Assembly (NCBI GenBank): GCA_902560315.1
Contig: CACELG010000001.1
Span: forward strand, 124,001-188,000
Source of the DNA: an uncultured SAR86 cluster bacterium
GTDB taxonomy: Bacteria; Pseudomonadota; Gammaproteobacteria; Magnimaribacterales; D2472
Length of the DNA: 64,000 nt
Direction of reading: 5' to 3'
The position numbers and the translations under genes were made by a program. A model generated the notes under the pieces. That model saw only the letters and a program-made list of their open reading frames with translations, made no database searches and was not told the origin of the DNA. Of this stretch, positions 4,502 through 30,952 are shown in pieces (within the stretch, counting starts at the first letter, position 1; each line of letters starts with the position of its first letter).

Positions 4502-5734
4502 TTGATAAATAATAAAAAAATAAGTAAATTTGCGATCTCAATCATTGAAGATCTAAAAAAGAATAACTATCAAGGATACCTAGTTGGAGGTTGTGTTAGA
4601 GATCTTTTGTGCGGTCTTGAACCAAAAGATTTTGATATTGCAACTAATGCAACTCCTGAGCAAATAAGAAAAATTTTTAAAGCCTCCAGAATTATAGGAA
4701 AAAGGTTTAAGCTTGTTCATGTTTTTAATAGATCAGAGCTTATTGAGGTTGCTACATTTAGATCTGGTGATGATATAAATAATGATGGTAATCTAGTGCA
4801 AGATCAATCAGGTAAAATTATTAGAGATAATATTTGGGGTGGTCTTGAACAAGATAGTTATAGAAGAGATTTCACAATAAATTCACTTTACTACTGTCCT
4901 CTTTCTAAAAAAATTGTTGGTCATGAAGATGGTATGAAACATATTCATGAAAAAAAAGTTGTCTCAATTGGAGATCCAAAAAAGAGATTTGCTGAAGATC
5001 CTGTGAGGTGTTTAAGGGCTTTAAGGTTTAGTAATAAGCTTAATTTTAAGATTGATCCTAAAATAAAAGATGCGATTTATGAAAAGGGGCATTTACTCTC
5101 TGGTATTTCAAATGCAAGAATTTTTGATGAATTTTGTAAAATCTTTCTTAATGGAATGGCTGAAAAGAACTATAGAAAAATGACTTCTTTTGGTCTAAAT
5201 AAATATCTTGTAACAACTAACCCTGAGAAGAATGAATTTACAAGCAGGTTAATCATTGAAGCATTAAGAAACACTGATAAAAGATTAAAAAATAATCAAT
5301 CTGTAACCCCTGGTTTTCTTATTGCGGCACTTCTTTGGCCTGAACTGTTAGAAAAATCAATTGCTAAAGGTGAGATAAATCTTAGGAAATTCTTTAGATC
5401 TATGGACCAAGTTCTTAGAAAACAACAAAAAATTACAGCAATTCCAAGGAAATTTTATTCGTATATAAAAGATATATGGGTTTTGCAATTAAAGTTACAC
5501 AGTAGAATTGGTAGACAGCCTTATAAAACTTTAAAACATCCAAGGTTTAGAGCAGCTTATGATTTTATGCTTATTAGAGAAAAAGCTGCCAATGAAATTA
5601 ACAATTTAGGTAAATGGTGGACTAAATTTCAAAGAAATGATGATAATCTAAAAAAATCTCTTATAAAAATTATTAATGAAAATGATATACAAGAATCGTC
5701 TAAAACATTTGGTTTCTCTCAAGAGTTACGATAA
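4502..5734 (+). CDS. pcnB: Poly(A) polymerase I
   Basis: A class II nucleotidyltransferase that adds 3' poly(A) tails to RNA and promotes its decay. The signature LVGGCVRDLLCG (residues 27-38) is followed by catalytic aspartates D43 and D45 in KDFDIATNA. The RRDFTINSLYY and EDPVRCLRALRFS motifs follow, typical of PcnB/tRNA nucleotidyltransferases. At 410 residues it is somewhat shorter than E. coli PcnB. The start is TTG at 4502: a TAA at 4478 closes the frame upstream and no ATG precedes the conserved domain. The dksA neighbour supports PcnB over CCA-adding enzyme. Confidence 0.9.
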   Translation: MINNKKISKFAISIIEDLKKNNYQGYLVGGCVRDLLCGLEPKDFDIATNATPEQIRKIFKASRIIGKRFKLVHVFNRSELIEVATFRSGDDINNDGNLVQDQSGKIIRDNIWGGLEQDSYRRDFTINSLYYCPLSKKIVGHEDGMKHIHEKKVVSIGDPKKRFAEDPVRCLRALRFSNKLNFKIDPKIKDAIYEKGHLLSGISNARIFDEFCKIFLNGMAEKNYRKMTSFGLNKYLVTTNPEKNEFTSRLIIEALRNTDKRLKNNQSVTPGFLIAALLWPELLEKSIAKGEINLRKFFRSMDQVLRKQQKITAIPRKFYSYIKDIWVLQLKLHSRIGRQPYKTLKHPRFRAAYDFMLIREKAANEINNLGKWWTKFQRNDDNLKKSLIKIINENDIQESSKTFGFSQELR

Positions 5735-22669: not shown

Positions 22670-22675
22670 TTAAAA

Positions 22676-22847
22676 ACATTCTGGTTCATTTGCTAATGTG
22701 TTAATAAATTTGAACCGATACTATTAAATAGGTGATATTCCACTGTCATTGTTGAGCAATACCACATAGGGAAGCCTGATCTGACAAGATATTCACCACC
22801 TGAACTTTCGGTTCAGGTATAACACATGGCGGTGATCTGGATTGTTA
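22676..22847 (+). ncRNA. ssrS: 6S RNA
   Basis: 6S RNA mimics an open promoter and sequesters sigma-70 RNA polymerase. The gene sits between zapA and fau, its standard gammaproteobacterial location. Segments shared with E. coli 6S include ATACCACA, GAAGCCT, ATTCACC and the hairpin ACCTGAAC-TTTCG-GTTCAGGT at 22798-22818. The terminal stem can be drawn: 22676-22690 pairs with 22831-22845 in 13 of 15 positions, counting G-U pairs. The length of about 172 nt is close to the 184 nt of E. coli. Exact ends are inferred. Confidence 0.9.
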
Positions 22848-27295: not shown

Positions 27296-27334
27296 TTTAA
27301 ATCACATGTAATAATTTTCTTGTATTATAACTGT

Positions 27335-27973
27335 ATGAGCGCCTCAAAGATAAGTGTTGCAAAAAAAGCAATAAGCCATATTGAAAAAAAACTGACTAGT
27401 GAAGTTGTTCTGGGAATTGGTACAGGATCTACTGTAAATTTTTTTATTGAAGAATTAGGAAAGTTTACAAGTCATTTCCGAGGTGCTGTCTCAAGCTCTG
27501 AAGCATCAACTCAACTTTTAAAAGCCAAAAATATTGAGGTATTTAGTCTCAATGATGTTAATGAAATAGAATTTTATATAGATGGTGCTGATGAAGTGTC
27601 GCCTGATAACTTCTTAATTAAAGGGGGTGGAGGTGCACATACAAGAGAAAAAATTGTAGCTGCAGCAGCAAAAGAATTTATATGTATTGTTGATGATTCT
27701 AAATTAGTTGAAGTTCTTGGATCCTTCCCTCTTCCAGTAGAGGTAATTCCAGAAAGTAGAAGCATGGTATCAAGAAAAATAGTTGCAATCGGAGGTAGGC
27801 CAGTTTACCGATCAGGATTTGTAACTGATCAAGGCAACCAGATATTAGATATACATGATATAAGAATTAACAATCCTGAAGAAATGGAAATACTTCTAAA
27901 TAATATTCCTGGTGTTGTTGATAATGGAATATTTGCATTTGATAAACCAGAAATTGTTTTAGTTGGAGACTAA
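27335..27973 (+). CDS. rpiA: Ribose-5-phosphate isomerase A
   Basis: Interconverts ribose-5-P and ribulose-5-P in the pentose phosphate pathway. Family motifs are [20 protein letters not shown] and [15 protein letters not shown] choose the ATG at 27335 (MSASKIS), giving 212 residues; an in-frame TTG at 27320 falls in promoter-like sequence. The ilvA-rpiA divergent pair is known from E. coli-related genomes. Confidence 0.95.
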
Positions 27974-27979
27974 AAATAT

Positions 27980-28504
27980 TTAAAGAAGTTCTTTTATTTT
28001 AGATATTAGTTCTGGTGAATCTGGTTTAACTTTTGATCCAAATGTTGATGCTACTTTTCCATCTCTTGTAATTAGATATTTATTAAAATTCCAAGAAGGA
28101 CTTACCCCGCTTTGATCAATTAACTTTTTATATAAAGCATTGGCTTTCTTGCCTCTGACTTTTGAAGTAGCAAACATAGGGAAATCTACGCCATATTCAG
28201 TTGAACAAAATTCAGCAACGTCAGTTTCATCAGAATATTCTTGCATAAAATCTCTCGATGGCACTCCAAGAACAACAAATCCATCATCTTTATAATCTTC
28301 ATATAATTTTTGTAATGAGGCATATTGATAGGTATACCCGCATCTGCTTGCAACATTAACTACTAGAACAACTTGATCACTATACTCACAAAGATTTACA
28401 GTTTCGCTTGAATCTAAAATACGCATTTCAGTATCCATTAAATCCGAACAAGCATATGAATAAGAGGAAACAAATAATACAGAAACTAGGATAAGCTTTT
28501 TCAT
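27980..28504 (-). CDS. Exported glutathione peroxidase-family thiol peroxidase
   Basis: A 174-residue thioredoxin-fold peroxidase with an N-terminal signal peptide (KKLILVSVLFVSSYSYAC), so it acts in the periplasm or as a surface lipoprotein. The peroxidatic cysteine is C55 in NVASRCGYTYQY. WNFNKYLITRDG supplies the conserved tryptophan/asparagine. The usual NQF(G) glutamine motif is replaced by PSRDFMQEY, a departure from canonical members. A short ORF and a candidate small RNA lie directly upstream on the same strand. Confidence 0.88.
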   Translation of the reverse strand: MKKLILVSVLFVSSYSYACSDLMDTEMRILDSSETVNLCEYSDQVVLVVNVASRCGYTYQYASLQKLYEDYKDDGFVVLGVPSRDFMQEYSDETDVAEFCSTEYGVDFPMFATSKVRGKKANALYKKLIDQSGVSPSWNFNKYLITRDGKVASTFGSKVKPDSPELISKIKELL

Positions 28505-28519
28505 GATATATATTTTAAT

Positions 28520-28606
28520 CTAAGAAATAGGTGTTATTGCAGATAATGATGAAATAAATATTGTTATTAAAAAAATAACCTCGATTTTGTCTTTATATTT
28601 CTCCAT
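28520..28606 (-). CDS. Possible 28-residue single-pass membrane peptide
   Basis: A very short ATG-initiated frame. It begins MEKYKDKIEV, continues as a hydrophobic run of about 15 residues (VIFLITIFISSLSAI) and ends TPIS. An AAGGA Shine-Dalgarno-like sequence lies seven bases before the ATG, and the stop is 15 bases before the glutathione peroxidase start, so it would be the first gene of that transcript. The charged N-terminus and hydrophobic helix look like a real membrane peptide, but chance is possible at this length. I do not recognise it. Confidence 0.45.
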   Translation of the reverse strand: MEKYKDKIEVIFLITIFISSLSAITPIS

Positions 28607-28621
28607 TAAATAATCCTTTTT

Positions 28622-28696
28622 AAAAGATATGGAGGGCTGGGCCCTCCACAATTCCAGAGTGTCAGCATATAAAATAGGGGAGAGGAGTGCTGACAT
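28622..28696 (-). ncRNA. Candidate small RNA with CU-rich loop and its own terminator
   Basis: Read on the minus strand, an 8-bp hairpin comes first. TGTCAGCA (28695-28688) pairs with TGCTGACA (28667-28660) around a 20-base loop starting CTCCTCTCCCC. An 11-base linker follows, then a perfect GC-rich hairpin TGGAGGGC-CCA-GCCCTCCA (28648-28630) followed by TATCTTTT, an intrinsic-terminator shape. The loop is complementary to Shine-Dalgarno-like GGAGAGGAG. About 75 nt in all. It could instead be an attenuator in the leader of the downstream peptide/peroxidase genes. Inference from sequence only; I know no family match. Confidence 0.5.
28630..28648 (-). terminator. GC-rich hairpin, likely Rho-independent terminator
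   Basis: A perfect 8-bp stem with a 3-base loop, exceptional in GC content for this AT-rich region. On the minus strand it is followed within three bases by a T-rich TCTTTT. No protein gene lies upstream on that strand, since the next gene, fadB-like, points away. It therefore terminates either a small RNA or a leader transcript. Confidence 0.5.
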
Positions 28697-28701
28697 GTAC
28701 T

Positions 28702-28729
28702 ATTATGCATATTTATAATATATTATCAA
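28702..28729 (-). promoter_or_regulatory. Putative sigma-70 promoter for the minus-strand small RNA/leader
   Basis: Read on the minus strand, TTGATA (28729-28724) and CATAAT (28707-28702) are separated by 16 bases. Each matches consensus at five of six positions. The expected start is near 28695, at the first base of the CU-rich-loop hairpin. Confidence 0.45.
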
Positions 28730-28761
28730 CTATATTTATAAAATAAATCATGTTTTTTTTA

Positions 28762-28798: not shown

Positions 28799-30952
28799 TT
28801 GAAAGGAACAGTTTTATATGAGGTTCAAGGCGATGTAGCAGTATTAACAGTTGATAACCCTCCTGTGAACCCACTAAGTGATGGTGTTAGGAACGGTTTA
28901 TATGAATCACTTCAAAAAGCAGAAGATGATGAGACTATTAAGGGTGTTGTTTTAACTGGCAATGGAAGAGCTTTTATAGCGGGAGCTGATATATCAGAAT
29001 TTGGCGGTAATGTTGAAGGTAAAAGCCTCAATGAAGTGTTTCAAAAGCTTGAATTCTGTAAAAAACCTGTTGTTGCAGCAATTAATGGGATTGCCTTAGG
29101 TGGCGGCCTGGAAACTGCATTATGTTGTAATTACAGAATAATTGATAAAAATGCCATTGTAGGCCTTCCAGAGGTTAATTTAGGCCTATTACCTGGAGGT
29201 GGTGGAACTCAAAGACTCCCAAGACTTACAGGGCCAAGTGAGGCATTAAAAATGATGCTTACAGGATCACATGTGCCAGCTTCAAAAGCTTTAAATATGG
29301 GTATTGTAGATAGCATGTCAGATAACGTGGTTGCTGATTCTATTGAATTTATAAAGAACGTGGCTGAAAAATCAGATAGTCATCCAAAAGTACGTGATAT
29401 TAATGAAAAAATGATTGAAGCAAGAGGAGACGATAAGGTTCTTCTAGAAGCACAAGCAATGGCAGCAAAAGGAAGAAAAGGACAATTTGCACCTGGACAA
29501 ATAATTAAATGTGTTGAATCAGCAATAAATTTAGATGATTTTGATGAAGGACTTAAAAAGGAAGGTGAGTATTTTCTTGAATGCTTAATGCATCCTCAAA
29601 GGGAAGCTATGATTCATATTTTCTTTGGAGAAAGAGCAGCATCAAAAATTGCAGATGTACCAAAAGAAACAAAAATTATGGACATAAAAAAAGCTGGAAT
29701 CGTTGGTTCAGGAACAATGGGAGGTGGAATCGCTATGTGTTTTGCAAATGCAGGCATTCCGGTTCATATAATTGATCAAGATGAGGAAAACTTAAAAAGA
29801 GGTATTTCGGTCATAGAAAAAAATTATGATTTTATGGTCGGTAGAGGAAGATTAAGTGCCGAACAGAAAGATGCTGTTTTTGGGCTTGTATCATCATCAT
29901 TAAAGTACGAAGATCTTTCAGATTGCGATATTGTAATTGAAGCTGTGTATGAAAACTTAGAACTTAAACATGAGATATTTAAGTCTTTAGACGAACATGT
30001 TAAGGACGGTGCTATACTTGCTAGTAATACATCAGGTTTAAATATAGATTCAATAGCATCAGTTACCAATAGGCCTGAAAAGGTAGTGGGTACTCACTTT
30101 TTTAGCCCAGCTAACATAATGAGACTATTAGAAGTTGTAAGAGGCGAAGAAACTTCTGACGAAACATTAGCAACGGTAATGTCAGTTGGTAAGCGCCTTA
30201 AAAAAGCAGCTGTTGTGTCATTAAACGCTCCTGGCTTTATTGGAAACAGGATGTTATTTGGTTATACAGCCCAGGCAAATATGTTACTTCTTGAAGGTGC
30301 CCTTCCCCATCAAATTGATCAAGCATTAGAATCATTTGGTCTAAATATGGGTCCATTTAGAATGATGGATCTTGTTGGTTTAGATTTAGGATGGAGAGCA
30401 AGGAAATTGAGTGGAAAGGAATCTCCTCTTCATGCAAAAATTGGTGATGAACTTTGTGAACAAAATAGATATGGTCAAAAAAATGGAGCTGGCTATTATA
30501 ACTATTCTGAGGGGTCACGTGCTCCAAATCCCGCGCCAGAAAATGAATCTACATATGAAAAGATATCATCTGATAATGGTTTCACAAGAAGAGAAATATC
30601 TGACGAAGAGATAGTAGATAGGTGTGTATTAGCACTTATAAACGAAGGGGCTGATATTTTATCTGAAGGAGTTGCCCAAAGAGCTGCTGACATAGATGTT
30701 GTTTACATTAACGGATATGGTTTTCCAATATGGAGAGGTGGTCCAATGCATCATGCAAATGCAATGGGGTTAGATAAAGTTATTGAAAAACTAGAGAAAT
30801 ATAGAGAATTAACAGGTAATGATGTCTATAAACCTAGTGAAATGCTTATAACGCTTGCTAAAAATGGAGAAAGATTAGGAGAAGCGCCTAAAAAAGAAGA
30901 TAGAAAACAAAAATTGGACTTTGAAATGTCTTCAGTTGCGAATAATTTCTAA
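28799..30952 (+). CDS. 3-hydroxyacyl-CoA dehydrogenase/enoyl-CoA hydratase multifunctional enzyme
   Basis: A FadB/FadJ-type beta-oxidation enzyme of 717 residues. The N-terminal crotonase domain has GRAFIAGADISEF, the oxyanion GIALGGGLETAL and catalytic LPEVNLGLLPGGGGTQRL. From about residue 300 the dehydrogenase begins with the NAD loop GIVGSGTMGGGIA and carries THFFSPANIMRLLEVV. C-terminal dehydrogenase repeats follow. The start is TTG after GGAGA. No thiolase gene (fadA) follows, so the thiolase partner must lie elsewhere. The single-gene layout resembles stand-alone bifunctional enzymes more than fadBA operons. Confidence 0.93.
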   Translation: MKGTVLYEVQGDVAVLTVDNPPVNPLSDGVRNGLYESLQKAEDDETIKGVVLTGNGRAFIAGADISEFGGNVEGKSLNEVFQKLEFCKKPVVAAINGIALGGGLETALCCNYRIIDKNAIVGLPEVNLGLLPGGGGTQRLPRLTGPSEALKMMLTGSHVPASKALNMGIVDSMSDNVVADSIEFIKNVAEKSDSHPKVRDINEKMIEARGDDKVLLEAQAMAAKGRKGQFAPGQIIKCVESAINLDDFDEGLKKEGEYFLECLMHPQREAMIHIFFGERAASKIADVPKETKIMDIKKAGIVGSGTMGGGIAMCFANAGIPVHIIDQDEENLKRGISVIEKNYDFMVGRGRLSAEQKDAVFGLVSSSLKYEDLSDCDIVIEAVYENLELKHEIFKSLDEHVKDGAILASNTSGLNIDSIASVTNRPEKVVGTHFFSPANIMRLLEVVRGEETSDETLATVMSVGKRLKKAAVVSLNAPGFIGNRMLFGYTAQANMLLLEGALPHQIDQALESFGLNMGPFRMMDLVGLDLGWRARKLSGKESPLHAKIGDELCEQNRYGQKNGAGYYNYSEGSRAPNPAPENESTYEKISSDNGFTRREISDEEIVDRCVLALINEGADILSEGVAQRAADIDVVYINGYGFPIWRGGPMHHANAMGLDKVIEKLEKYRELTGNDVYKPSEMLITLAKNGERLGEAPKKEDRKQKLDFEMSSVANNF

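Follow-up and report, generated by a model that had tools for sequence, protein, structure and literature searches.

The window, a stretch of 64,000 nucleotides from the 1.08 Mb genome of a SAR86 cluster bacterium, carries on its minus strand a putative small RNA, followed by a reading frame for a small membrane protein and by a glutathione peroxidase gene (gpx), with a fadB-like gene diverging upstream and rpiA converging downstream (Table 1). A sequence-only reading had proposed an independent small RNA at this place, and the elements it named are all there: the TTGATA and CATAAT boxes 16 bases apart exactly as given, the 8-bp stem with its 20-base loop, the 11-base linker, the perfect 8-bp GC-rich hairpin and the TCTTTT tail; the adjoining peroxidase is the glutathione peroxidase. 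The RNA would be ~75 nt long, with a predicted 5′ end at about 28694–28697 and a 3′ end at about 28621. The gpx gene starts 15 bases downstream of the microprotein stop codon, and RNA, microprotein and gpx together look like one transcription unit.

Table 1. Features of the small RNA locus and of related sites, in positions of the window (arms and boxes on the minus strand are given 5′ to 3′).
Feature	Positions	Strand	Basis
6S RNA	22675-22847	+	Rfam, gathering score (59.2 bits)
Convergent ribose-5-phosphate isomerase A gene (rpiA)	27320..27973	+	context
Glutathione peroxidase gene (GSHPx, gpx)	27980..28504	-	PF00255, E 3.9e-27
28-aa membrane microprotein MEKYKDKIEVIFLITIFISSLSAITPIS	28520..28606	-	translation
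Small RNA	28621..28697	-	covariance-model match (89.2 bits, E 1.1e-20 in cmsearch; the model's 34 source sequences include that of the window)
Broken U-tract (tail) TATCTTTT	28622..28629	-	sequence
Terminator-like GC hairpin, 5′ arm TGGAGGGC	28630..28648	-	fold and terminator scan
Arms of its 8-bp stem, TGGAGGGC and GCCCTCCA	28648-28641 and 28637-28630	-	
Linker, 11 nt, contains CTCTGGA	28649..28659	-	sequence reading
Hairpin 1, 8-bp stem and 20-nt loop	28660..28695	-	fold
Arms of hairpin 1 stem, TGTCAGCA and TGCTGACA	28695-28688 and 28667-28660	-	
Loop of hairpin 1, starts CTCCTCTCCCC	28687-28668	-	
CU-rich loop segment CTCCTCTCCCC, candidate pairing site	28677..28687	-	conservation
Plus-strand promoter-like site, for the divergent fadB-like gene	28690-28719	+	11/12 matches
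Promoter and upstream element	28696..28750	-	R2 match, E 3.0e-8 in G000 (sequence itself in the profile)
-10 box CATAAT	28707-28702	-	
-35 box TTGATA	28729-28724	-	
Divergent FadB/FadJ-like enoyl-CoA hydratase/3-hydroxyacyl-CoA dehydrogenase gene	28799..30952	+	context

The RNA is predicted to fold into two hairpins, the second, terminator-like one closing on a loop of 3 nt, with a minimum free energy of −27.5 kcal/mol (z = −3.63; 1/200 shuffles as low). Its U-tract is broken, and as a terminator it is probably leaky. Scans of the surroundings returned promoter-like and terminator-like sites at chance level (15 against 15.3 expected and 2 against 1.7 expected, respectively), so that the reading of a single sequence is insufficient and the case rests on comparison. 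At gathering score no Rfam family was found in the RNA region, nor was anything relevant there up to E 10; the only family reaching that score in the window was 6S RNA. Among the open-access papers listed on SAR86 small or non-coding RNAs, on SAR86 and pseudoazurin and on small RNAs of marine metatranscriptomes, no report of such an RNA was found, and the word SAR86 is absent from the main text of PMC5069720, as far as that source was available. The SAR86 RNA thus appears to be uncatalogued.

Conservation of both stems in relatives had been set beforehand as a test of the proposal, and both recur. The RNA with its promoter was recovered by blastn at E ≤ 1e-20 from 30 of 34 genomes of the same genus, the four without a match being 60–82% complete. 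In one of the four (G027) the contig begins in the RNA tail and the microprotein is intact; in the other three, a search for gpx gave only distant paralogues (38–42% identity), so that either the assembly or the genome lacks the locus. Contigs of the incomplete genomes G027 and G106 (L230, L232) break within or beside the RNA. When the covariance model, R1, was run over 203 genomes of the order, 95 of the 107 from family f1 gave a match at E ≤ 1e-5, each carrying one to three copies at dispersed sites; at least two copies were present in 15 of these 95, 13 of the 15 belonging to genus g17. Model matches on the opposite strand were discarded as an artefact of the palindromic terminator.

Beyond f1, the family f4 (TMED112-like) has a shorter form of the RNA, with weaker matches (E ≤ 0.1) in 20 genomes. 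All six f4 loci read were genuine, with the same TTGATA promoter, gpx downstream, a first hairpin in which GTCAGT precedes a loop with CTCTCCTCTCCCCC, and a terminator of GGGGC, loop and GCCCC followed by five or more T. Weak matches were also seen in 25 genomes of family f3 and nine of family f2 (E 0.0018–0.072, f2 loci unread). Two of the six f3 loci read (L095, L099) were spurious terminator matches; the other four (L094, L096–L098) have a similar stem and loop but neither the TTGATA motif nor the terminator hairpin, and were excluded from the family counts as unproven. The stem and CU loop of these four are very similar to those of the RNA, and the hairpin lies (at about 1936–2085) between polA (PF00476) and engB, a GTPase gene, presumably the place that Spot 42 occupies in E. 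coli; the L096 hairpin gave no match to Rfam Spot 42.

Outside SAR86 the model reached E ≤ 0.001 in only two genomes of an even sample of 369 from the class, about the number expected by chance. The hairpin 1 pattern, run over the species collection, returned 72 stretches. Almost all were labelled SAR86 cluster or Gammaproteobacteria bacterium in their titles; five had titles that looked foreign. Re-scored with the model, one of the five (L126, WB7 Proteobacteria MAG) is a full member at 87.4 bits and is probably mislabelled SAR86; a Bradyrhizobium stretch (L129) has hairpin 1 only (24.7 bits; GTCAG, CTCCTCTCCCC and CTGAC at 5316–5365), possibly a chance hairpin or an alphaproteobacterial CU-loop RNA; L124 scored 14.7 bits, and the two remaining stretches fell short of E 0.5. 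As far as searched, the RNA family appears confined to two SAR86 families, f1 and f4.

Sixty-eight loci of f1 and f4 were read, comprising 66 distinct sequences; four f3 loci were left out. In 60 of the 68 (54 from f1 and 6 from f4, here type A) the RNA is followed by gpx and convergent rpiA, the latter cut by the contig end at L016, and preceded by a divergent fadB-like gene in f1 or by a same-strand gene read as lnt in f4. A microprotein of 24–33 aa lies between RNA and gpx at 54/54 f1 type A loci, and one of 27–29 aa at the four f4 loci where one was read (L100–L103). Although neither Pfam nor NCBIfam gave a match, its conserved E, L, F and P positions and a mean pS of 0.65 vs pN of 0.15 across 28 same-genus sequences, when in the other two frames pS was below pN, identify it as a real protein. 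Ten gpx loci of f2 and f3 gave no convincing RNA model match with the search filters off, and at the eight of the ten that were read upstream (L239 and L240 being outside that set) gpx closely follows a reading frame judged by eye to be L,D-transpeptidase-like, without a microprotein.

Seven further copies (type B; genera g17, g2 and g3) stand alone: each ends at or a few bases from the stop codon of a convergent exonuclease gene (PF08411 in the one protein scanned, the other six assigned by blastp cluster), with no adjoining gene on the RNA's own strand, and a third copy in G154 (L088) lies at yet another place. These copies keep the promoter and the stem-loop and are without the type A linker, microprotein and gpx. 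The RNA, facing an exonuclease gene at the type B loci, need not be a leader. The proposal that the RNA is independent is supported by the stand-alone copies in other genomes; in the window itself, though, the RNA is also the 5′ portion of the apparent gpx transcription unit.

Because the 3′ arm of hairpin 1 is misplaced in the MAFFT alignment (A4), base pairs were counted sequence by sequence; two loci (L042, L043), promoter-only or chance matches, had been dropped from alignment A1. The 6-bp core of hairpin 1 was fully paired in 65 of 66 distinct sequences, counting G-U, across 16 stem variants, and compensatory change was found at all six core pairs (for example GTCAGC/GCTGAC, ACCAAC/GTTGGT, TCCAAC/GTTGGA and GCTAGC/GCTAGC). 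In a 34-sequence alignment none of 500 shuffles, which ignore relatedness, reached any of five covariation measures. Sequence comparison leaves almost no doubt about the existence of the RNA and its structure: conservation and covariation argue for a real, structured minus-strand RNA with its own promoter and a CU-rich single-stranded loop, as had been proposed.

The loop is strongly conserved. Most copies begin it with ACTCCTCTCCCC; in genus g14 it is mainly the CCCCCTAT part that is constant while the 5′ half drifts, and two copies (L088, L112) are without the full motif. Exact CTCCTCTCCCC was present in 38/54 f1 type A, 5/7 type B and 6/6 f4 copies and not in the third copy (0/1), and five pyrimidines followed by CCCC in 52/54, 7/7, 6/6 and 0/1, respectively. 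In 52 of 65 folded sequences the loop was mostly unpaired (mean probability over 0.8). The 5′ arm of the f1 terminator is also constant, reading GGAGGG, GGAGAG or GGAGGA in 54/54 type A copies, 7/7 type B copies and the third copy (0/6 in f4, which has GGGGC instead), and this constancy is stricter than a terminator should need. The linker motif CTCTGGA, present in 45/54 f1 type A copies, was found in none of the type B (0/7), third (0/1) or f4 (0/6) copies; being limited to the gpx locus, it suggests that the RNA may have an added cis role there.

These features bear on whether the RNA is mainly a cis-acting leader, in which hairpin 1 and the terminator-like one would attenuate transcription of the genes downstream, microprotein and gpx, until a signal (pairing of the loop with the GGAGGG terminator arm, a protein, or translation) lets polymerase pass. 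Such a leader would fit the 60 of 68 loci, in both f1 and f4, that have gpx downstream (the microprotein lying in between at 54/54 of those in f1), the weak U-tract in the genus of the window, a linker motif seen in type A only, and a GGAGRR arm that every f1 copy read retains and that is able to base-pair with the loop (duplex of −8.8 kcal/mol). However, the terminator hairpin is the stronger of the two pairings in the window sequence (−14.0 vs −8.8), some copies (L107, L112), judged by eye, do not retain the loop-arm pairing, and the stand-alone copies end at or close to a convergent gene's stop codon with no same-strand gene adjoining. We regard a mainly cis-acting role as unlikely, albeit deserving serious consideration; an independent, trans-acting role is likely, because the stand-alone copies keep promoter and stem-loop.

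In some relatives the promoter motif also precedes genes other than that of the RNA. TTGATA lies upstream of the RNA in 54/54 type A f1, 7/7 type B, 1/1 third and 6/6 f4 copies, and a profile of the upstream 59 bases (R2), searched in 25 SAR86 genomes, matched at E ≤ 0.05 in 23 of them, with one to five sites in each. Nine sites away from the RNA at E below 1e-4 were read, and all precede protein genes in the same orientation: five lie before a pseudoazurin-type copper protein (G007, G011, G015, G034 and G130; PF00127 in 5/5, and both of the two scanned with NCBIfam above the curated cut-off for pseudoazurin), three before a membrane protein of 60–70 aa (G133, G144 and G160), and one before etfB, encoding an electron transfer flavoprotein subunit (PF01012; G130). 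No convincing Pfam family was found for the 60–70-aa membrane protein (L221, L226, L087). The distribution is patchy: a strong non-RNA site is present in 9 of 19 f1 genomes searched (counting G151, unread), two other genomes of the genus have none, and the window's own genome shows only a weak second site (E 0.05) without a clear gene. Where the motif recurs, a regulator common to the RNA and the other genes is likely, and the set of genes under it points, perhaps, to redox control.

Fur was considered as this regulator and is not supported. The half-sites of the Fur consensus are one base apart; in the motif the half-sites TGATAAT and ATTATAA are two bases apart and the second is missing in f4. 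Fur itself was present in 35 of 40 relatives and was not found in the window's own genome. The plus-strand promoter-like site for the divergent fadB-like gene overlaps the stem and promoter of the RNA, making promoter interference possible.

Inverted repeats can be protein sites, and the chance-level scores of the promoter and terminator scans would equally suit an untranscribed DNA element, a regulator site or terminator pair between divergent genes. Nevertheless, a loop conserved between compensating stems, a second GC hairpin, a promoter motif oriented alike before the RNA and before protein genes, and copies at other loci together render a purely DNA-level repeat highly improbable.

Hfq was found in none of 40 relatives (24 of the same genus and 16 from f2, f3 and f4, with the other f1 genera outside the sample), the search control being positive in five named genomes, and ProQ in none of 22 genomes, six f1 genera included. 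These absences make a GC-rich loop that pairs without a chaperone plausible, as for RepG of Helicobacter, to judge from the available part of PMC8295292.

CsrA is a translational repressor that binds GGA at ribosome binding sites. It was found in 63 of 203 genomes of the SAR86 order, 34 from f3 and 29 from f2 (most of both families), in none of 107 f1 genomes and in none from f4, and a cytochrome b tree (26 rows, midpoint root, with a warning for long branches) set f1 and f4 apart from f2 and f3 with full support. Absence of CsrA thus coincides with presence of the RNA across families, but as one event. That this multi-copy CU-loop RNA replaced CsrA, acting by pairing with GGAG or GGGAG as an RNA-only global regulator of translation where a streamlined genome has no Hfq, ProQ or CsrA, is a speculative idea to which we give little credence: since the distribution looks like a single evolutionary event, the correlation is a correlation of one, and it would be broken if the similar f3 hairpin at the other locus were the same RNA. 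A CsrA-binding RNA on the plus strand was rejected, the promoter motif and the U-tract pointing to the minus strand and CsrA not having been found.

It had further been proposed that the loop could mask Shine-Dalgarno sequences and so repress many mRNAs. Targets were sought among 386 start regions in 400 kb of G015, roughly one third of that genome, against 1000 permutations of the loop, and complements of the real loop showed no significant excess over those of permuted loops: 28 6-mers vs 21.2 expected (177/1000 permutations as high), nine 7-mers vs 5.2 (130/1000) and two 8-mers vs 1.19 (352/1000). The 1% tail of duplex energies was slightly better for the real loop (−15.3 vs −12.3 to −14.6 for eight permutations and the reversed loop), and its best single duplexes were no better than those of permuted or reversed loops. 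Near matches to the loop complement numbered 23 in the window, one being the RNA itself, vs 20 expected. The best-looking site, GGAGAGGA before the cytochrome b gene, appears to fall in the coding end of the preceding gene (as read at 16 of 26 loci, all from f1). Repression of many mRNAs is therefore not supported by this search of one relative.

A loop conserved while target enrichment was not found could instead be a binding or decoy site for protein, for example one that titrates an RNA-binding protein or imitates the anti-Shine-Dalgarno tail of 16S rRNA. However, none of the usual partners (Hfq, ProQ, CsrA) turned up in the RNA-bearing genomes searched for them, and the GGA bound by CsrA is on the other strand of the loop. 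We consider such a site improbable, and hold that the RNA probably acts by pairing with G-rich stretches of mRNA.

Among known systems, Yfr1 of cyanobacteria is close in design. In the part of PMC2190773 available, Yfr1 is described as 54–69 nt long, with an ultraconserved, CU-rich ACUCCUCACAC held single-stranded, a GC-rich terminator hairpin and a U-tail, and with trxA, a thiol-redox gene, downstream in 27 of 31 genomes. By that description the SAR86 RNA shares its small size, a single-stranded CU-rich motif starting ACUCCUC, a GC-rich terminator and a redox neighbour (in SAR86, glutathione peroxidase), whereas ACUCCUCACAC of Yfr1 is unpaired between two hairpins and ACUCCUCUCCCC of SAR86 stands at the start of a hairpin loop. 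The motifs part after ACUCCUC, and the phylum is different. The covariance model of Yfr1, which we take to be Rfam RF01115, gave no match in the RNA region at gathering score or among the six matches listed up to E 10.

By the features tested, the SAR86 RNA belongs to neither of the families, RepG and CcsR, to which the sequence-only reading had likened it. The CU-rich terminator loop of RepG pairs with G-rich mRNA leader sequences, according to the available part of PMC8295292. The CU-rich loop of SAR86, unlike that of RepG so described, belongs to hairpin 1; the terminator loop of the SAR86 RNA is short and not CU-rich. Both RNAs have a CU-rich loop, and a further likeness lies in Hfq, which was not found in the SAR86 genomes searched and which, to our knowledge, H. 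pylori lacks. The CcsR1–4 RNAs of Rhodobacter also have CU-rich loops. Within the portions available of PMC8307010 and PMC8625941, they are four homologous, co-transcribed RNAs from the 3′ UTR of ccaF1, an upstream gene for an RNA-binding small protein, and interact with Hfq. Set against that account, the SAR86 RNA resembles them in its link to oxidative stress and glutathione and in having a small-protein gene as partner, but it has its own conserved promoter directly upstream rather than deriving from a 3′ UTR, its microprotein is hydrophobic, without a Pfam match and downstream, where the CcaF1 gene is upstream, its copies are dispersed where CcsR1–4 are transcribed together, and Hfq was not found in SAR86 (0/40).

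Taken together, the evidence favours, with reasonable though not full confidence, an Hfq-independent base-pairing small RNA, perhaps redox-linked, with a leaky terminator; its independence is suggested by the conserved promoter and terminator signals and by the stand-alone copies. The RNA's own promoter would give rise to a transcript of ~75 nt, in which stem 1 would present the CU-rich loop single-stranded. The loop would then pair in trans with G-rich stretches of mRNA, which most likely lie at ribosome binding sites or close by, and pairing would alter translation or stability of the mRNA without Hfq. Some transcripts would read through the broken U-tract into the 28-aa membrane protein and gpx, which would place a peroxide defence gene and the RNA under the same promoter signal.

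Bacteria of the SAR86 cluster rank among the commonest in sunlit ocean waters, and few regulators are known in their streamlined genomes. Where searches failed to find Hfq, ProQ and CsrA, an RNA that is conserved and at times duplicated would offer a rare handle on gene regulation, and would add, after cyanobacterial Yfr1 and Helicobacter RepG, a further lineage in which a CU-rich single-stranded segment forms the conserved core. The microprotein, gpx and, in some relatives, the promoter shared with pseudoazurin make a role in oxidative or electron-transfer stress testable.
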